Origin: Deltaproteobacteria bacterium
GTDB taxonomy: Bacteria > Desulfobacterota > Binatia > Binatales > Binataceae
Assembly (NCBI GenBank): GCA_003135135.1
Contig: PLDK01000029.1
Location: 1-64,000 of the forward strand
DNA length: 64,000 nt
Direction of reading: 5' to 3'
Below are positions 23,629-44,571 of the stretch, in pieces. A program made the position numbers and the translations under genes. The notes beneath the pieces were generated by a model that had not been told where the DNA came from, ran no database searches, and was given only the letters and a program-made list of their open reading frames with translations. Numbering within the stretch: the first letter of the stretch is position 1; the number at the start of each line of letters is the position of its first letter.

Positions 23629-24453
23629 ATGACTCCAGGTAGCGCGCAGATTTCTTCGCGAAACACCCCGCAACCACAACGGCCCTCACTGCTCGACGCC
23701 CTTGGCGAGTTCCGACTTCCGCTCGAGGCCTCCATTTATTGGCTCGGCGCACTCACCCATCCCTGGCCACACGTACAGCCGCTCAACAGCAAAGTCGTCA
23801 TGCTTATTCCGGGCTTCATGGCTGGCGACGTCACGCTTGCGCCATTGGCGAATTTTTGCCGATGGCTCGGCCATCGCGCAGTCCACGCGGGAATCTGGTC
23901 GAACTCCGAGTGCCCGCGCGAAACGATGCAGAAATTGAACGCACGGATTGCTCTCACCCATGAGAAATTCGACCAGCCGATCGTTGTGATCGGCCAGAGT
24001 CTCGGCGGCGTTTACGCGCGCGAGATTGCCCGCGAGCAGCCCGAAATGGTCGAGCGGGTGATCTCGCTTGGATCGCCGCTGAGACAACCGCGCCACGCGG
24101 CCAACCTTGCCGTGCAGGCGGTTGCGCGATCGATCGCCGCACTTCGCGGCAAGGCTGACGGATGCCTCAGCGAGTCGTGCAAGTGCGGACTTATATTGAG
24201 CGACGAATCGCCCGCGCACGTTCCAGCCACCCACGTTTACTCGCGCACCGACGGTGTCGTGCATTGGCAAAGCTGTGTCGATTTGAGCGGCGCGCCGACG
24301 GTGGAAAACGTCGAGGTGACGGGCAGTCACGTCGGGATGGGATTGAACGCCGATGTGTACCGCGTGATCGCGGATCGGCTGGCGATGCCGCATAGATCGC
24401 GGCTCCGTTTGGTGGATTCACACGCCTCGGCCGCGCAGGCCGCGCAGAGTTGA
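23629..24453 (+). CDS. Alpha/beta hydrolase (lipase-like)
   Basis: A 274-residue hydrolase with oxyanion region MLIPGFMAGD (58-67) and nucleophile elbow GQSLGG (Ser124). A later acid (YSRTDGVVHW) and histidine (GSHVGMGLN) complete a triad. The domain resembles triacylglycerol-lipase/PGAP1-like acyl hydrolases. AAGGAG five bases before the ATG supports the start. No signal peptide is seen, so it likely acts in the cytoplasm or at the inner face of the membrane. Substrate unknown. Confidence 0.8.
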   Translation: MTPGSAQISSRNTPQPQRPSLLDALGEFRLPLEASIYWLGALTHPWPHVQPLNSKVVMLIPGFMAGDVTLAPLANFCRWLGHRAVHAGIWSNSECPRETMQKLNARIALTHEKFDQPIVVIGQSLGGVYAREIAREQPEMVERVISLGSPLRQPRHAANLAVQAVARSIAALRGKADGCLSESCKCGLILSDESPAHVPATHVYSRTDGVVHWQSCVDLSGAPTVENVEVTGSHVGMGLNADVYRVIADRLAMPHRSRLRLVDSHASAAQAAQS

Positions 24454-24493
24454 ATCCGGCGCGCGCTCTTATGCGCGTCCGTAAACACGGTGT

Positions 24494-26686
24494 TCAGGCG
24501 CCGGGTTCGCAGGTCCAACCAAACGGCACGGTGCCCTCTCCAATCTTGAGCGTATTGTCGTCGGCCACAACGATGAGGTCTCCTGGCGGGCAATCGCCTT
24601 GAACAATCGGTTGATCAGTGCACGGAACGGTGATCGTGCCCGGAACACTGCCCGCAGTCACCGTACTATTGCAGACAATAAAGTCGCTATCGCTTCCTAG
24701 GGTCACAACGAGGTCGCCGCTTGGAATAGCGCATTTGACATCGACCGTGACGCTACCGGTACAAGTGTCGAAGGCGCCGAAGCCGGACCCAGAAACTGAG
24801 CAATCTGCACCTCCGCCCAGATAGGACACCTTGCAGCCGTTCACGCCAATCGATATGGGCGTCGGAGTCGAGGTGGGCGTCTGCGTCGGAGTGCGCGTCG
24901 GAGTTGCGGAGCGTGTCGGAGTCCCAGTCGCGGTGCGCGTCGCAGTCGCGGTGGGCGGCGGCGGCGTGGCCGTCCCCGTGGGCGTCGGAGTCATGGTCCT
25001 TGTCGCGGTTGCGGTCGCCGGCGCGGTGGAAGTCGGAGTCGGCGAGGCGATCTTGGTCGGCGTCGAAGTAGGCGTCAGAGTCGGGGTGGGGGTCGCGTTG
25101 ACCTTTCGGACTTTGCCGGTGCCCTTAAGTGTCACCGAAAGCGACGGGTCGGTCGCATTGCTGGCGATGACGAGCTGCGCGGTGCGATGACCGGCGACGG
25201 CGGGGGCAAAGGTGATCGCGGCCTCGCACTTGGCGCCCGCGGCGAGCTGACCCAGGCAGTTCCGCGAAGCGGAGAACTCGTCCGTGCTCGGCTGGATCGA
25301 CGTGATCGTGATGGGCGCGTCTTGCTTCTTGTTCTTTACGTCGATGAGCGCGAGCTTTTTGGGCTTGCTTGTCACCCCAACGAAAACCGTGCCGAATTTA
25401 ATCACCTGCGGCTCGGCCTTGAGCGCGGCTTGCACCGGGGTTGGCGTGGCCGTCGGCGTGATGGTTGGAGTCGGCGTCGTGCTCGCCGTGGCGGTCGCCG
25501 TCGGCGTGGGGGAAGCCGTACCCGTCGCTGTGGCGGTTGCCGTAGCCGTTGGCGTTGCGGTGGAAGTCTCAGTTGGCGACGCGGTGGCCGTGCCGGTTGC
25601 AGTTGAGGTGGTAGTTGGTGTCGCCCTGGGAGTGGGTGTCGGGGTTGCGCCGGTTGGGGCGGCGGTTGGAGTGGCGGTTGGCGTAGGGGTCGGGGAGGGC
25701 GAAACCGCCGTGTACTGTTCGTTGGTCCCGAGCGCGCCCCCACTATTGCTGCCGTCGATCACATATAGCTGCGAGTTGACCACACTCCCGGTCGTGGCGC
25801 TCCGAGCGGTGGGCATCGAGGTGCGCTCCGTCCACGTATCGCTCGGAGGGTCATAGCTTTCATTGACTGCCAGCGGGAGAGTGCTGCTTCCCCCGACCAC
25901 GTAGATGTCTCCATTGATCACACCTGCGGCCGCTGCCTGCCGCGAAGTCGGCATCGCCAAACCCGTCGACCAACTGTCGGCAGTAGGGTCGTACACTTGC
26001 ACGTTACCTACCACGGCGTTGACCGAGCCCCGTTCGTAGCCTCCGATCGTATAGAGCAGTCCGCCTGCGACAGCACCCGTCATGAGGTCGCACGACAGCG
26101 GGATTGAGGCGCCTGTTGTCCAGGTGTTCGTGATCGGGTTGTAAATCTCAGTTGTGTTCGTGTTAGCGCATGGCGGACACGCCGTCGTTCCGCCGGTGAC
26201 GTACAGCTTGCCCCCGATGACACCCGCCGCGGCTCCATAGCGCGCCGTCGCCATCGACGCCCCGGTTGACCACGAGTTGGCAACGGGGTCGTAGATTTCA
26301 AGCGCGTTGGTGACGCCGATTCTGCAGTCCGAGCTCAGGCAGCCGCCGACCACGTACATCAGGCCGCCGATGACGCCGGCGCTTACGTACGCGCGAGTGA
26401 GACTCGGCGCCGCCCCGGTTGTCCACGAATCCATTGCTGGGTTATAGATGCTAAGCAGAGGGCCGGTGGTGTCGTACCCATACACGTAGATGAGCCCGCC
26501 GATCTCGCCGCTGGCGACACTGGCTTGGGGGTTCGGATCCGAGGTCCGGCTCGCCCAACTATCCTGGGCGCACGCGCGACCTGCCAAAAACATCGTCAGA
26601 ACCACGACGATCGCCGCGTATCTTGCCGCACTTCCTGTTCTGTATGGTCTCAAGTTAGGGGGTTGATATAGTTGACACACAAGCAT
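24494..26686 (-). CDS. Secreted Kelch-repeat protein with Thr/Pro linkers, start hit by IS
   Basis: About 730 residues read from the present hybrid start. A signal peptide (TGSAARYAAIVVVLTMFLAG, cut after ACAQ) leads to six Kelch blades (IGGLIYVYGY, IGGLMYVVGG, IGGKLYVTGG, AGGLLYTIGG, INGDIYVVGG, VNSQLYVIDG). Then come a Thr/Pro/Ala-rich linker, an immunoglobulin-like choice-of-anchor/ASH domain (VIKFGTVFVGVTSKPKKLAL in part), a second Thr/Pro linker, and a Cys-containing C-terminal domain of about 90 residues. This fits an extracellular or surface protein. The native start was probably TTG 26653, whose ribosome site has been moved 2.5 kb away by the IS1595 element. The ATG at 26686 lies inside the inserted element and is the first in-frame start with the sequence as it stands. 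Whether it is expressed is uncertain. Confidence 0.75.
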   Translation of the reverse strand: MLVCQLYQPPNLRPYRTGSAARYAAIVVVLTMFLAGRACAQDSWASRTSDPNPQASVASGEIGGLIYVYGYDTTGPLLSIYNPAMDSWTTGAAPSLTRAYVSAGVIGGLMYVVGGCLSSDCRIGVTNALEIYDPVANSWSTGASMATARYGAAAGVIGGKLYVTGGTTACPPCANTNTTEIYNPITNTWTTGASIPLSCDLMTGAVAGGLLYTIGGYERGSVNAVVGNVQVYDPTADSWSTGLAMPTSRQAAAAGVINGDIYVVGGSSTLPLAVNESYDPPSDTWTERTSMPTARSATTGSVVNSQLYVIDGSNSGGALGTNEQYTAVSPSPTPTPTATPTAAPTGATPTPTPRATPTTTSTATGTATASPTETSTATPTATATATATGTASPTPTATATASTTPTPTITPTATPTPVQAALKAEPQVIKFGTVFVGVTSKPKKLALIDVKNKKQDAPITITSIQPSTDEFSASRNCLGQLAAGAKCEAAITFAPAVAGHRTAQLVIASNATDPSLSVTLKGTGKVRKVNATPTPTLTPTSTPTKIASPTPTSTAPATATATRTMTPTPTGTATPPPPTATATRTATGTPTRSATPTRTPTQTPTSTPTPISIGVNGCKVSYLGGGADCSVSGSGFGAFDTCTGSVTVDVKCAIPSGDLVVTLGSDSDFIVCNSTVTAGSVPGTITVPCTDQPIVQGDCPPGDLIVVADDNTLKIGEGTVPFGWTCEPGA
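26652..26657. repeat. Target site duplication, left copy
   Basis: AAGTTA directly abuts the left inverted repeat of the IS1595-family element and recurs at 29205-29210 beside the right repeat, marking a simple insertion. Confidence 0.85.
26658..26681 (+). repeat. Left terminal inverted repeat of IS1595 element
   Basis: 24 bp, exact reverse complement of 29181-29204. Starts with five Gs next to the AAGTTA target duplication. Confidence 0.9.
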
Positions 26687-26707
26687 TGTGTGTGTAGTAT
26701 CTAGGGT

Positions 26708-27640
26708 ATGAAGACGCCACGAACATTGATTGAAGCGATTCGATATTTCGCGGACCCGGAAATCTGCCGCAATTATCTGGCCGAATGCCGCTGGCCGAAT
26801 GGCGTAACCTGCCCGCGTAAGGGTTGCGGATCGAAGGAAGTATGGTTCATCCGAACGCGGGCGATCTGGCGCTGCAAATCCAAATCTTGCAACAAGCAAT
26901 TTTCCGTCAAGGTTGGGAGCATCTTCGAGGATTCCCCAATCTCATTGGATAAATGGCTCCCTGCCGTCTGGCTGCTCACTTGCTCGACAAAGGGTTATAG
27001 TTCCCATCGGTTGGCAAAGGCGTTAGGGGTCACACAGAAAACCGCATGGTTCATGCTCCATCGTATCCGGCTCGCCTTGCGTGCGGGCAGTTTCGAGCCA
27101 CCCATGTCAGGGCCGGTCGAGGGCGACACTACTGGCATCGGCGGACTAGAAAAGAACAAGCATCGCAGCCAGCGATTACATCGCGGAACGGGTAACGTCG
27201 GTAAGGCTGTAGTATTCGGCCTTCTCGCTCGGCACGGCCAGATTCGAGCGAAGCGCGTACCCAACGAGCGAGCAGAGACACTTCAATCTGTCATTCGCCA
27301 TAACGTTGAATCGGGCGCGATTCTCTACACCGACGAAGCAGCGTCCTTTCGCGGGCTGAACGCGGATTACGCGCACGAAGTCATCAATCATTCCGAAGAG
27401 TATGTGCGCGGCGCGGTCCATACGAACGGGATCGAGAGCTTCTGGGCGAACTTCAAGCGGACGATATACGGTACGCATCATTTCGTGATGCCGTGGCAGC
27501 TTGACCGATACCTTGACGACGCAACCTTCCGGTTCAATCAGCGAAAAATTGGAGATGGGGATCGCTTCGCTCTGGCGCTTGCACAGTCCGATAGTCGAAG
27601 GCTCACGTATAAGGAATTGACCGCCAACGAGGAAATTTAA
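26708..27640 (+). CDS. IS1595-family transposase
   Basis: A 310-residue transposase. An N-terminal zinc ribbon has Cys35, Cys40, Cys56 and Cys61, followed by a helix-turn-helix (SSHRLAKALGVTQKTAWFML in part) and an ISXO2-like DDE domain. Catalytic candidates are Asp140 (VEGDTTGIGG), Asp209 (ILYTDEAASF) and Glu243 (HTNGIESFW). The first motif departs from the usual VEVDETYIGG: the residue after Asp140 is Thr and the tyrosine is lost. Its stop codon overlaps the start of the next gene, so transposase and first cargo protein are translationally linked. Confidence 0.92.
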   Translation: MKTPRTLIEAIRYFADPEICRNYLAECRWPNGVTCPRKGCGSKEVWFIRTRAIWRCKSKSCNKQFSVKVGSIFEDSPISLDKWLPAVWLLTCSTKGYSSHRLAKALGVTQKTAWFMLHRIRLALRAGSFEPPMSGPVEGDTTGIGGLEKNKHRSQRLHRGTGNVGKAVVFGLLARHGQIRAKRVPNERAETLQSVIRHNVESGAILYTDEAASFRGLNADYAHEVINHSEEYVRGAVHTNGIESFWANFKRTIYGTHHFVMPWQLDRYLDDATFRFNQRKIGDGDRFALALAQSDSRRLTYKELTANEEI

Positions 27641-28536
27641 TGAAACACTATTTTTCTGAATTGCGCCGATGGGTACGAACTTCTCTTCTGGGCGCGACTA
27701 AAACCCAAGAACTGCCCGGAGAAGAAGTTGATCAACTTCTTGCGAAATATCCGTCGGAAGATGTGACAAAGGAACTGTTTGATTTTGGGCAAATGCTGCT
27801 TACAACGGATGACGAGCGTGTTGGACTTATCGATTCTAAAGCCACTACTCTCATCGGCTATAGCAGCGCGATACTGGCGTTTTTGCTCATGCGCGGCGCT
27901 AGTTGGACTCATTCATGGATTGAACTGATTGCAATTGCGCTTGTGGCCGTCCTCGCTGGCCTCGCATGTGTCGCTGCTTTTATGGCAGTACGCGGCGCAC
28001 AGAATTGGAGCCAGTTAAGCGAAGCAACTTGGTTTCCGCGCGATCAGGTATTAGCAGGCCCCGATCAACTCAAGAGGTTTTATATCAGCGCGATGCATCA
28101 AGTTCTCCAAGACAATCATCGGATCGCAAATCGCAAAGCCGATCAAATGATTGTAGCTCAAATCCTCGTCGCGGCAGCGGGCGTGCTTCTGGCAATTATA
28201 CTGACCGTGGCCATCGCAACCACGCTCATTCGGTCCTTCACTTGCCGCCCTTCTGAATTATATTCAGCGAGCGCCGCGCCGGTGACTGCTCATTGTGTTG
28301 CGATGTATTCAGGGTATCGCGGGCTACTCCCTTTTGCTCGGTGTTCAATGTCTCCCGAGGAGCAACTACGGGGACCACGGGAACTACAGGAACTACAGGA
28401 ACTACAGGAACTACTACAGGGACCACCACGGGAGTCGCTACAACAGGCTTGGCACCTTGCCCTTGCTGCTGTTGATTTCCCTGTCCGGCACCGCCGCCCG
28501 TGTTCCCTGTGTTTTGATTATCGTCAGGCATCTTGA
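27640..28536 (+). CDS. Three-helix membrane protein carried by IS1595 element (Pycsar/SLATT effector-like)
   Basis: The ATG shares a base with the transposase stop (TAATG), with GAGGAA just upstream. The body, residues 1-200, has a soluble N-terminus and three membrane helices (about 68-86, 93-116, 173-196). The segment LIDSKATTLIGYSSAI just before and into the first helix resembles the D-x-K-A motif at the membrane entry of PycTM and SLATT-type effectors of nucleotide-signalled abortive infection; that similarity is by eye. No cyclase or sensor gene is nearby. Residues after about 205 are low-complexity (a run of QELQEL repeats) and overlap an opposite-strand gene, so the reading frame there may be accidental or the natural stop may have been lost. 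Up to 298 residues as it stands. Confidence 0.6.
   Translation: MKHYFSELRRWVRTSLLGATKTQELPGEEVDQLLAKYPSEDVTKELFDFGQMLLTTDDERVGLIDSKATTLIGYSSAILAFLLMRGASWTHSWIELIAIALVAVLAGLACVAAFMAVRGAQNWSQLSEATWFPRDQVLAGPDQLKRFYISAMHQVLQDNHRIANRKADQMIVAQILVAAAGVLLAIILTVAIATTLIRSFTCRPSELYSASAAPVTAHCVAMYSGYRGLLPFARCSMSPEEQLRGPRELQELQELQELLQGPPRESLQQAWHLALAAVDFPVRHRRPCSLCFDYRQAS
28238..28531 (-). CDS. Small low-complexity protein with TLNT repeats (IS cargo)
   Basis: A 97-residue protein. A Gln/Gly/Asn-rich start (MPDDNQNTGNTGGGAGQGNQ) is followed by a Pro/Val repeat block (about 30-55) and three related units (RETLNTEQKG, RDTLNTSQHN, RRSLNIIQKG). GGGAG lies about eleven bases before the ATG. The internal repeats in this frame make it more gene-like than the overlapping tail of the membrane protein on the other strand. 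I recall similar tails in unannotated small proteins of soil bacteria, but no function is known. Confidence 0.5.
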   Translation of the reverse strand: MPDDNQNTGNTGGGAGQGNQQQQGQGAKPVVATPVVVPVVVPVVPVVPVVPVVPVVAPRETLNTEQKGVARDTLNTSQHNEQSPARRSLNIIQKGGK

Positions 28537-28548
28537 AGGTATCTCCCT

Positions 28549-28737
28549 ATGAAAAAGTTAACTTCGATCTCGCGCGCACATAATCTCAGAACGGTGCTAC
28601 GACGCGGCACTACCCAAAATGCAGCGCGCCCGGAATTGGGATTCGCTGGCAGCAGCGAGATACCTGACGGTCTCAGGGAAGTCATGCGGAAAAACTCATT
28701 GGCGCTGAAGAAAATCACCAAGAAAGTTCCTTATTGA
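28549..28737 (+). CDS. Possible small basic protein (IS cargo)
   Basis: A 62-residue, lysine/arginine-rich frame. GAAGG lies nine bases upstream of the ATG, and the start is 17 bp from the divergent 97-residue gene. The C-terminus overlaps the end of the converging 94-residue gene by 23 bp. No motif is recognised, and it may not be a real gene. Confidence 0.35.
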   Translation: MKKLTSISRAHNLRTVLRRGTTQNAARPELGFAGSSEIPDGLREVMRKNSLALKKITKKVPY

Positions 28738-28999
28738 TATTGGCGAATACGAATTGAAGGTTAAGGCTCGTGAAGAAGGGATGCCATTGATGCGGTGCTA
28801 TAAATGCCATGCGCCCACCGGCGCCGTCCCACACGGGAACGACGATACCGGCCAAGCCAGCCGACCGCGAATGTATTTGCAGATCGGCGATGATCGCTTG
28901 CTGGTCTTGTGAGGATTTACTGCCGAATGATGATTCGAGCGGAATTATGACCATATCTTGGCCTTGCTCGCGAAGATGGGCGACCTTAAATCGAGGCAT
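28715..28999 (-). CDS. 94-residue protein of a widespread uncharacterised type (IS cargo)
   Basis: Starts MPRFKVAHLREQGQDMVIIP and ends in QFVFANINKELSW. The central part (LQIHSRSAGLAGIVVPVWD, GGRMAFIAPHQWHPFF) is well ordered and mixed alpha/beta. I recall close relatives as hypothetical proteins near mobile elements in soil proteobacteria. AGGA precedes the ATG by about nine bases, which supports this start rather than a 42-codon extension upstream. Function unknown; its place inside the IS marks it as cargo. Confidence 0.65.
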   Translation of the reverse strand: MPRFKVAHLREQGQDMVIIPLESSFGSKSSQDQQAIIADLQIHSRSAGLAGIVVPVWDGAGGRMAFIAPHQWHPFFTSLNLQFVFANINKELSW

Positions 29000-29012
29000 A
29001 TAAAACCGTCCT

Positions 29013-29141
29013 ATGAAGAAAAAATCGTTACCCCTATCGAAGTTTCGCGATGCTCTCCGGCGCATTGCCGCCGTTCCCAAGGACGAAGTGAAACAACTGC
29101 TGGCCGACGAACGAGCGGCGCGCAAACGGCGGAAATCTTAA
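29013..29141 (+). CDS. 42-residue basic protein (IS cargo)
   Basis: A very short gene reading MKKKSLPLSKFRDALRRIAA and ending in RAARKRRKS. It starts 13 bp from, and divergent to, the 94-residue gene. The amphipathic helix followed by a Lys/Arg tail is similar to small proteins I have seen near mobile elements. No ribosome site is obvious. Coding is supported by ordered composition only. Confidence 0.5.
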   Translation: MKKKSLPLSKFRDALRRIAAVPKDEVKQLLADERAARKRRKS

Positions 29142-29180
29142 AATTCGTGGCACTAAATTCACCATATCGCAGCGAGGCTC

Positions 29181-29204
29181 TGTGTGTCAACTATATCAAC
29201 CCCC
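29181..29204 (-). repeat. Right terminal inverted repeat of IS1595 element
   Basis: 24 bp, exact reverse complement of 26658-26681. The outer edge abuts AAGTTA at 29205-29210. Confidence 0.9.
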
Positions 29205-29210
29205 AAGTTA
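29205..29210. repeat. Target site duplication, right copy
   Basis: AAGTTA, matching 26652-26657. Joining the two copies in silico restores a minus-strand GCAGG followed five bases later by TTG AGA CCA, the likely original ribosome site and start of the Kelch gene. Confidence 0.8.
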
Positions 29211-29516
29211 GCCTGCTTAATCGTCTGAGAGACATTCGAATCGATGATCCCTGGTTTTCCGGATAGCCAAATGGCTGGAAATTCCCCGAAAAGAAAAAAC
29301 ACAGAAAGCCTGAAACCTCACCAAGGTTTCAGACTTTCCGGGGCACTCCTGTTCGCGGTCTGGAAAGAAACGAACTACCTGATAGCGCGAGTTCCCTGAA
29401 GGCGGGACGCCACTACCGGTATCCAATGGCAGCGTCAAGGCCTAAATGAACGACAATCAGCGACAATCAGCCAGACTCTTCGCTCAAGCCCGAGATTTGA
29501 TCATCGCCACTGTTGA
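29211..29516. other. Displaced upstream region of Kelch gene and sodB 3' region
   Basis: This 306-bp stretch has no gene. Before the IS inserted, its left end was the leader of the Kelch gene on the minus strand. It also holds the minus-strand terminator of sodB (listed separately) and a short tandem repeat CGACAATCAG x2 near 29451-29470. Confidence 0.6.
29290..29340 (-). terminator. Rho-independent terminator after sodB
   Basis: On the minus strand a stem of about 15 bp with one mismatch (complement of 29304-29318 with 29324-29338, GAAAGTCTGAAACCT paired with AGGTTTCAGGCTTTC) is followed by TGTGTTTTTTCTTTT. It lies about 180 bp beyond the sodB stop on the same strand. Confidence 0.75.
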
Positions 29517-30098
29517 CTACTTGAAATTCGCGTTTGCGAAATCCCAGTTGGCCAGCTCCCACCACGCTTCGACATACTTGGGACGCGCGTTGCGATAGTC
29601 AATGTAGTACGCATGCTCCCAAACGTCGCAGGTGATTATCGGCGTATGGCCCTCGCGTATCGGGCATCCCGCGTCATGGGTCGCGATCACTTGCAACGAG
29701 CCGTCCTTCGCGCGCACCAGCCACGCCCATCCGCTGCCGAAGTGGCCGGCGGCAATCTCGCTGAATTTTTTCTTGAACGCATCAAAACTGCCGAAGTCTT
29801 TCTTGATCGCGTCGGCGACTGGTCCCTTCGCTTCGCCGCCGCCCTTCGGACTCAAGGATTTCCAGTAAAAGGAATGATTCCAATGCTGCCCCGCGCTGTT
29901 GAACAGCGGCCCCGGTTCAGCCGTCTTCACAATCTCTTCGAGCGAGGCGCTCGCGAATTTGCCGCCCACGATCAGTTCGTTGAGCTTGGTGACGTAGGCC
30001 TTGTGATGCTTGCCGTGGTGATACTCGAGCGTCTCGGCGGAGATATGGGGTTTCAGCGCGTCCAAACTGTACGGGAGGTTCGGAAGTTCAAAAGCCAT
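29517..30098 (-). CDS. sodB: Iron superoxide dismutase
   Basis: A 193-residue cytoplasmic enzyme that dismutates superoxide. Metal ligands are visible in the family positions: His in LEYHHGKHHKAYV, His in AGQHWNHSFYW, and Asp/His in DVWEHAYYIDY. The Gln in AGQHWNHSFYW is the placement typical of Fe rather than Mn enzymes. AAAGGA lies about nine bases before the ATG at 30098. A terminator follows on the same strand. Confidence 0.95.
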   Translation of the reverse strand: MAFELPNLPYSLDALKPHISAETLEYHHGKHHKAYVTKLNELIVGGKFASASLEEIVKTAEPGPLFNSAGQHWNHSFYWKSLSPKGGGEAKGPVADAIKKDFGSFDAFKKKFSEIAAGHFGSGWAWLVRAKDGSLQVIATHDAGCPIREGHTPIITCDVWEHAYYIDYRNARPKYVEAWWELANWDFANANFK

Positions 30099-43026: not shown

Positions 43027-44571
43027 TTACTTAGAGGTACTTCGTGCAAGACCCGTCCCCACTGCCGGGACAAAGACTTCGACTGCGTTGGTGGCGGTAT
43101 CTCCCGCCGCGTCAATCGCTCCTCCAATCGCCCAGATGCCCGTAGCGAGGGAGGTGTCCATCTCAGACGCCGGAGCGACGAGGGCCGCCAAACCCCATCG
43201 CGCCGTCGGCATCGGAAGTTGCGGCGTCCAGCTATTGGTGGCCGGGTTGTACGCCTCGACTGAGGCCAGCGGATTGCCGTCCGCGCCACGGCCACCGATC
43301 GCGTAGAGCAAGCCGTTTAAAGCCACGACGGCAAGGTCAGCCCGCGGCGTGAGCATCGGCGCCTCCGTTGACCAGCTATTGGTTGCGGGATTGTAAGCTT
43401 CCAGCGTCGCCAGAGTTTGACTGGAGGCATCGATCCCGCCGGCGGCGTAGATGATGCCGTCGATCACGTCGGCGCCGAGATCCGAACGGGGAGTAATCAT
43501 CGGAGCGGCGCTGGTCCAGGAATTCGAGGAAGTGTTGTAGACCTCAAGTACGCCGGTCAGTCCACTGCCGGTGTTGCCGCCCATCACGTAAAACAGTCCG
43601 GCGTTGAATGCGCCGGCGGGAGCGCTTCGCGCCGTCGGCATTGCGGTCAGCGTCGAAAAAGAGATTGGCCAGATCATTTCGGTTAGCGTTGCCACCGGGC
43701 CCGAGCCATCATCACCCCCTGCCACGTAGAGCAAGGCTGAATCGCCGGGCCCGGGGGCATAGGCAGGGAAGGATTGCGGACTCAGCATCGGGGGCTTCCC
43801 CTCCCAGCCGCCGCTTAACGGCCAGTCGGGGAGTGCCGGCGTACACAAGAGACAGGCGTAGGCCGCTTCCGAGACTCCGCTGCCGGGAATGTAGCCGCCC
43901 GCGGCGACAACCTCTCCCGGGCTGCCCGCCGCCAAGCCGTAGAGCGAAAGCGGCATTGGCCGTAATTCGAGCCACGCTGGGCCCGGGGTTGGCGTTGGCG
44001 TCGGCGTCATGCTCGGCGTCGGGGTTGCAGTTACCGTGGCAGTGGCAGTCGACGTCGCCGTGGCAGTCGGGGTCGGCTTCTTCTGCGTGGCTTTGCCCTT
44101 CAGCTCGACGGTCACCGAGGTCGGCCCGGTGGTCGAGCCAGTGCTGATATTGGCGATGCTGATGCTTGCGTCCAGCTTCTTGTCGGCTCCGGTGGGGCTG
44201 AACGAAACGTCAACCTCCTGGGCTATCCCGGCCGGAAGCGTCAGCGTTCCGCCCGCGCCATGAGAAAGTATGGGGGGGAATACAATCGTATAGTCGGAAG
44301 CGTCGGTGCCGGTGGACGCGCCGACGGTTACGGTCATCGGCAGCGTACCTTTGTTGGTGATGCTGAAATGCTTGGTCTCGTAGGTAACTTTGTCGAGGTT
44401 GACGTTGAAGCTCAGCGAGGTGGGTGAAACAGAAAGTTTACTTACTGCTGTCTTGCTGTCCGGCAACGCATCATCCGAATGCGCCAACGCCGGGCGCGCA
44501 AACGCGGCCAGCACAAACAACAGCGAGAAGCTCAAGGTGGCGATGGACCGCGTGAACGAATTGAAGCGCAT
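43027..44571 (-). CDS. Secreted protein with ASH-like domain, Thr/Pro linker and Kelch repeats
   Basis: A 514-residue exported protein. The signal peptide is about 1-30 (LSFSLLFVLAAFARPALA). A choice-of-anchor/ASH-like beta domain (about 40-150, LSVSPTSLSFNVNLDK, then VSFSPTG) is followed by a Thr/Pro/Ala linker (about 155-190) and a C-terminal Kelch propeller (AGSPGEVVAAGGYIPG, AGLFYVMGG, IDGIIYAAGG, LNGLLYAIGG, ATGIWAIGG). The same modules occur in the Kelch protein at 24494-26686 but in the reverse order. The ATG at 44571 is chosen since a typical signal peptide starts there. Likely surface or extracellular. Confidence 0.8.
   Translation of the reverse strand: MRFNSFTRSIATLSFSLLFVLAAFARPALAHSDDALPDSKTAVSKLSVSPTSLSFNVNLDKVTYETKHFSITNKGTLPMTVTVGASTGTDASDYTIVFPPILSHGAGGTLTLPAGIAQEVDVSFSPTGADKKLDASISIANISTGSTTGPTSVTVELKGKATQKKPTPTATATSTATATVTATPTPSMTPTPTPTPGPAWLELRPMPLSLYGLAAGSPGEVVAAGGYIPGSGVSEAAYACLLCTPALPDWPLSGGWEGKPPMLSPQSFPAYAPGPGDSALLYVAGGDDGSGPVATLTEMIWPISFSTLTAMPTARSAPAGAFNAGLFYVMGGNTGSGLTGVLEVYNTSSNSWTSAAPMITPRSDLGADVIDGIIYAAGGIDASSQTLATLEAYNPATNSWSTEAPMLTPRADLAVVALNGLLYAIGGRGADGNPLASVEAYNPATNSWTPQLPMPTARWGLAALVAPASEMDTSLATGIWAIGGAIDAAGDTATNAVEVFVPAVGTGLARSTSK

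Follow-up and report, generated by a model that had tools for sequence, protein, structure and literature searches.

The IS1595 family of insertion sequences (IS) was founded by Siguier et al. (2009). It is common for an IS to insert ahead of a start codon or on it, with silencing or activation of the gene concerned. According to the available part of its description, ISApl4 generates mostly AT-rich 8-bp target duplications (PMC12561309), while IS elements with passenger genes have been termed tIS, two examples of IS1595 type being given in the available part of PMC5704250. In Tn3-family transposons, toxin-antitoxin genes belong to the transposition module, as stated in the available part of PMC7157771.

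The locus described here lies within a 64,000-nucleotide stretch of DNA (the window) and contains a Kelch-repeat gene with an element inserted at its 5' end. Like members of the IS1595 family and tIS such as tISCpe8 and MTnSag1, the window element possesses a zinc-ribbon IS1595 transposase and terminal inverted repeats, is flanked by 8-bp AT-rich duplications and carries passenger genes. Unlike those described, it belongs to a group whose cargo is partly defence-like or of no known family; furthermore, the small VPK protein and the inward-facing -35 hexamers of this group find no mention in the available parts of PMC12561309 and PMC5704250. A literature search for IS1595 together with ‘defense system’ and ‘cargo’ returned no paper. 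The insertion itself differs from the usual start-codon insertions in that the whole probable start codon has been duplicated and the coding sequence left untouched, with displacement of the Shine-Dalgarno sequence. The features of the locus are as follows.

24494-26653, minus strand: Kelch-repeat gene, 719 aa if read from the probable native TTG (from the open reading frame, Pfam and the joined flanks)
26651-26658, no strand: left target-site duplication, CAAGTTAG; CTAACTTG on the minus strand, with TTG inside
26659-29203, plus strand: IS1595-family passenger-carrying element, 2,545 bp (from inverted repeats, duplication and transposase domains)
26659-26681, plus strand: left inverted repeat, 23 bp
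26672-26700, plus strand: left-end inward promoter-like site, TTGACA-17-TAGTAT, with the -35 in the inverted repeat
26684-26686, minus strand: hybrid ATG within the IS end, in frame with Kelch, 730 aa if used
26708-27640, plus strand: IS1595 transposase, 310 aa (PF12762 E 1.3e-38, PF12760 E 3.1e-10, NF033547 E 9.6e-54)
27640-28536, plus strand: passenger ORF, 298 aa, with a weak PADLOC PycTM match (E 6.4e-4)
28715-28999, minus strand: possible passenger ORF, 94 aa from ATG or 136 aa from a further TTG
29013-29141, plus strand: VPK protein, 42 aa, basic, common to most elements of the group
29161-29190, minus strand: right-end inward promoter-like site, TTGACA-18-TATGGT, with the -35 in the inverted repeat
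29181-29203, minus strand: right inverted repeat, 23 bp
29204-29211, no strand: right target-site duplication, CAAGTTAG
29212-29217, minus strand: AGCAGG, Shine-Dalgarno-like, at present 2.5 kb away from the Kelch gene to which it belonged
29302-29340, minus strand: terminator-like hairpin, between sod and the site where Kelch formerly began

The two terminal inverted repeats are identical across all 23 bp, a length that can also be counted as 24 bp, one G being assignable either way. In combination with the 8-bp duplication, such repeats are far beyond chance. The transposase contains an ISXO2-like/IS1595 transposase domain (PF12762, 132.9 bits against a cut-off of 27; NF033547, 182.5 bits against 75) preceded by an N-terminal zinc-ribbon domain (PF12760, 40.3 bits against 25.4). 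Membership of the IS1595 family is thus accompanied by both an 8-bp target duplication and terminal inverted repeats, and genes unrelated to the transposase lie between the repeats, as in tIS. Only one copy of the element is present in its 3.73-Mb genome, where the sole other DNA matches are those of its two repeats to each other. Among 58 genomes, its own included, the closest relative has a transposase 91% identical, resides in a same-genus genome (G004) and is flanked by its own 8-bp duplication. The landing of an IS at the start of the Kelch gene is an ordinary event.

An earlier note on this DNA had placed an IS at the start codon of a Kelch gene; the perfect 23-bp repeats and the 8-bp duplication with TTG inside it bear this out. 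The encoded protein shows matches to Kelch_1 (PF01344, E 9e-41) in four stretches and to an Ig-like domain (PF22544), and is laid out as a signal-peptide-like N terminus (judged by eye), Kelch repeats, PT-rich linkers and the Ig-like domain. The window has another Kelch-like region at 43168-43758 (minus strand), which shares 39% identity with the interrupted gene. The flanks as joined by script give ...GATTAAGCAGGCTAACTTGAGACC..., and the minus strand of the joined flanks reads ...TTAAGCAGG CTAAC TTG AGA CCA... As the note had stated, GCAGG, the complement of 29212-29216, falls five bases before TTG AGA. The longer AGCAGG matches AGGAGG at 5 of 6 positions with a spacing of 5 to the TTG, a match equalled or exceeded at 89 of 3000 random window positions. 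Thus, the TTG that the note took for the native start is plausible and probably correct, judging from the joined flanks. This TTG, at 26653-26651, survives wholly within the duplicated 8 bp; hence, the coding sequence of the Kelch gene is intact. An undamaged frame fits a recent insertion and, equally, continued use of the gene.

In its present context the TTG has a Shine-Dalgarno match of 2 of 6, as against 5 of 6 in the native one. The note had further proposed a hybrid start at an ATG inside the IS end, and this ATG (26686-26684) is indeed in register with the Kelch protein, to which an open frame leads across the IS end and the duplication; its use as a start is not supported, the Shine-Dalgarno match again being 2 of 6, when the commonest score at random window positions is 3. 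By itself, the presence within an IS end of a codon that could start an open frame is weak evidence, because one frame in three would be in register and there are three possible start codons. The suggestion that the gene might be driven from the near end of the IS is not supported: the one promoter-like site found there is on the plus strand and points into the element, away from Kelch. Since the promoter-like sites of both ends face inward, the near end offers Kelch no evident promoter. Together with the displaced Shine-Dalgarno sequence, this suggests that the gene is most likely silent or nearly so, and silencing is the likelier outcome than drive from the IS. Part of this reading, the loss of a native promoter, is counted against by a scan for sigma-70 type sites, which found no promoter-like site in the native upstream stretch (29205-29530).

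Taken together, these findings make it probable, in our judgement, that an IS1595 insertion at the Kelch 5' end duplicated the start codon, displaced the Shine-Dalgarno sequence and left the gene silent or almost so. The 8-bp site that this passenger-carrying element entered is rich in A and T and partly palindromic. Its duplication included the whole probable TTG and left the Shine-Dalgarno sequence, with an upstream stretch of about 90 bp reaching to the terminator-like hairpin, some 2.5 kb off, past the far end of the element. With the promoter-like sites of its ends directed inward, the element would leave Kelch without an evident promoter at the near end, and the gene silent or nearly so. 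Of this account, the element with its ends, the duplication, the frame and the displaced ribosome-binding sequence are shown directly, and the native start, the promoter loss and the silencing are inferred.

It may be asked whether Kelch is still expressed, by minus-strand read-through from the right end (29190-29161) or from a weak internal site, with translation starting at the ATG at 26686 or at the TTG. The right-end promoter-like site is indeed directed toward Kelch, the frame from 26686 is open into the gene, and 19 of 58 related elements have a similar right-end arrangement. However, the transcript would need to cross the whole element, about 2.5 kb and partly antisense to the transposase, and either start would have to function with a Shine-Dalgarno match of just 2 of 6. 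No minus-strand promoter-like site occurs in 26560-26960 at the threshold of the tool, and the best minus-strand pairs inside the element are weaker (8 of 12). We therefore regard continued expression as unlikely, albeit the strongest of the alternatives.

More doubtful still is a native start further upstream, which would place the element inside the coding region. Above the TTG, 37 codons of the joined frame are open before a TGA is reached, and the only other ATG, GTG or TTG in it is a GTG at the 32nd codon. That GTG sits at the foot of the terminator-like hairpin, which about 90 bp separate from the Kelch gene in the joined flanks, whereas the TTG has the good Shine-Dalgarno match and opens the stretch that resembles, by eye, a signal peptide. 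We consider the upstream start improbable.

A wrong join of the element into the contig is conceivable in a draft genome of 51 contigs, but the exact 8-bp duplication on both sides, the single copy of the element in the genome and the occurrence of both flanks as neighbours in relatives make it exceedingly improbable. Indeed, the sod and hydrolase genes that bracket the region are close neighbours in relatives. In one of these (G006) the conserved end of the hydrolase gene begins about 95 bp past sod, where the contig ends; in another (G001) a single ORF, metallo-beta-lactamase-like as named by eye, lies between the two genes. The sod-hydrolase interval (24454-29516 of the window) is thus a variable slot, occupied by Kelch here, by the metallo-beta-lactamase-like ORF in G001 and by about 0.1 kb in G006.

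Neither the sod-anchored loci of relatives nor searches with Kelch at the protein and DNA levels turned up an uninterrupted Kelch gene. In eight relatives (G001, G002, G003, G004, G006, G015, G025 and G034), the syntenic slot gave no Kelch DNA match, the BLAST matches in these loci ending at or just past the hydrolase gene, before Kelch. Protein searches of 58 genomes, its own included, revealed no orthologue and, besides the gene product itself, nothing above 39% identity. DNA searches of 41 genomes of the family, its own included and with 7 candidates scored per genome, gave partial matches only, the best among the matches listed being 82% over 259 bp. No repeats of at least 12 nt other than the terminator-like hairpin were found within the two edge stretches of the Kelch segment, 24400-24520 and 29200-29530, each searched alone. 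From these comparisons, the Kelch gene looks like an addition to the variable slot.

To place the insertion in a wider setting, we examined loci with a related transposase: of 112 with a match, 110 passed E 1e-20. Inverted repeats with an exact 8-bp duplication were present in 62 of these 110; the other 48 had no such pair, at least some of them being incomplete loci. Two loci (L151 and L152) were re-fetches of the places of L035 and L036. After removal of L151, of L060, L089 and L096 (each lacking TTGAC in the left repeat) and of L083 (identical to L044), and with addition of the window element, the final set comprised 58 bounded elements from several phyla. Their duplications have a mean GC content of 38%, compared with 58% in the flanks, and contain 2.03 palindromic pairs of 4, compared with 1.05 in controls; base counts give approximately CWAWTTWG, which is close to CAAGTTAG. 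The target of the window element therefore falls, in composition, within the preference of the group. In the 35 elements whose flanks both extend for at least 900 nt, open frames of at least 120 codons were present at both edges in 3, at one edge in 13 and at neither in 19; on this rough measure, elements usually insert next to long frames and not within them. Given an AT-rich palindromic preference and insertion beside frames, a start-codon hit requires no special mechanism.

The ends of these elements share a further property. The most frequent repeat bases over the 58 elements are approximately GGCAATAATATACTTGACTC, and a hexamer matching TTGACA at 5 or more of 6 positions is located at positions 14-16 in 55 left ends and 35 right ends. 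Where a hexamer matched at 4 or more positions, a -10-like hexamer followed 16-18 nt later at the left end of 42 elements and at the right end of 19, out of 58; with eleven shifted spacings as a control, one was found in 0 to 5 left and 0 to 4 right ends. It appears, then, that the inverted repeats also serve as -35 elements for promoters facing inward, and that they do so more often on the left. In the window element, the transposase ATG comes only 7 nt after the -10-like hexamer (26695-26708), a spacing at which the mRNA may be leaderless. Among the 42 left ends with a -10, 15 have no more than 9 nt between it and the extrapolated start.

Between the ends, the cargo is diverse. Elements range from 1.7 to 4.4 kb in length (59 elements). 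As cargo we took up to two of the longest non-overlapping ORFs of at least 110 aa from each element, a mechanical choice that takes in some false genes and that yielded 87 ORFs, with none from one element (L102). Pfam assigned ten of these to DUF3800, four to GmrSD_N and two to SocA/Panacea, with single matches to cytosine methylase, HEPN, RelA/SpoT, HNH and others. PADLOC gave matches to 128 models, some of them variants of one system; among the best 25 of these 128, at least three cargo ORFs matched NsnA, at least three PD-T4-2_A, at least two a type II restriction enzyme model and at least two, weakly, PycTM. On this basis, the cargo of the group is variable and partly defence-like.

In the window element, the first 210 or so residues of the 298-aa passenger resemble a membrane protein by eye; its weak PycTM match covers residues 61-115 only, it has no Pfam family at E 0.001, and a Pfam search of ORFs of the element revealed no nucleotide cyclase. 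The 3' part of this ORF may not be real coding sequence. A minus-strand ORF with a PVVPVV repeat (28238-28531) overlaps that part. The closest relative, in G004, has counterparts of the 298-aa passenger (27% identity over 180 positions) and of the VPK protein, and lacks one for the 94-aa ORF, which has no Pfam match at E 1, no NCBIfam match above cut-off and no relative in other elements.

Most elements also share the VPK protein. Small ORFs in most of them carry the pattern ~F..A(L/M)..I..VPK.E followed by a basic tail; as a seed, this pattern matched 25 of 1349 element ORFs and 0 of 2902 flank ORFs. An iterated profile, trained on the very elements counted, was positive in 53 of the 58 at E <0.01 (absent in 5) and again in 0 of 2902 flank ORFs. 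Six split-half tests, which are fairer, matched 23 to 27 of 29 held-out elements, with 0 of 2902 flank ORFs. In 42 aligned copies, the conserved residues use several synonymous codons, V and P all four, and the net charge ranges from 0 to +11. Where an element has both this ORF and a cargo ORF (52 elements), the small ORF follows the longest cargo ORF on the same strand in 24, precedes it in 3 and is encoded on the other strand in 25.

A whole-genome profile built from 42 small proteins gave 29 matches in the 58 genomes, 26 of them within 1.4 kb of an IS1595 transposase match, three of those 26 being training copies (the window, G003 with the coordinates of L069 and probably G054, L074). The remaining three had no transposase match near, one of them lying no more than 310 bases from the start of a contig. 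In 20 genomes picked as sources of elements (18 of the 20 loci being in the training set, and G065 being the same genome as G003), 43 of 51 matches lay within 5 kb of a transposase match and 8 did not; about 33 of the 51 were other copies, and no more than roughly 1% of these genomes lies within that distance. The small ORF was found within 5 kb for 38 of the 44 closest transposase rows, but for only 7 among the 44 that are more distant. In G006, the element (L040) was positive by the iterated profile and missed by the 42-protein (A2) profile at E 0.01.

Searches of Pfam, NCBIfam, PHROGs and PDB sequences with the VPK protein gave nothing convincing, only weak and scattered matches, and from these family libraries and the literature searched the protein is apparently undescribed. 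AlphaFold2 predicts two helices hinged at VPK (mean pLDDT 85, pTM 0.40). It is tempting to speculate that the protein assists the transposition module, perhaps by binding DNA or the transposase; we hold this view tentatively, and favour it because the small protein stays while the cargo changes. The case resembles that of the Tn3-family toxin-antitoxin genes, in that a small gene is retained with the transposition module (PMC7157771, in the part available), and differs in the transposase family. A role in cargo control, or as an antitoxin-like protein, is somewhat less likely and forms the chief alternative; no toxin partner for the VPK protein was identified here.

The insertion accounts for one secreted-type gene being probably off, and supplies a case in which a target duplication copies the start codon while displacing the ribosome-binding sequence. 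Of greater interest than the insertion is the element group itself, with its VPK protein and promoter-bearing repeats. We would cautiously picture a widespread IS1595 group in which a constant module, consisting of a transposase, repeats that double as inward -35 elements and a two-helix VPK protein that may serve transposition or restrain the cargo, accompanies an exchangeable slot filled mostly with anti-phage or toxin-like genes. Found across phyla, the VPK protein is a testable candidate for an unrecognised factor in transposition or cargo control, and a handle for locating small mobile defence genes.
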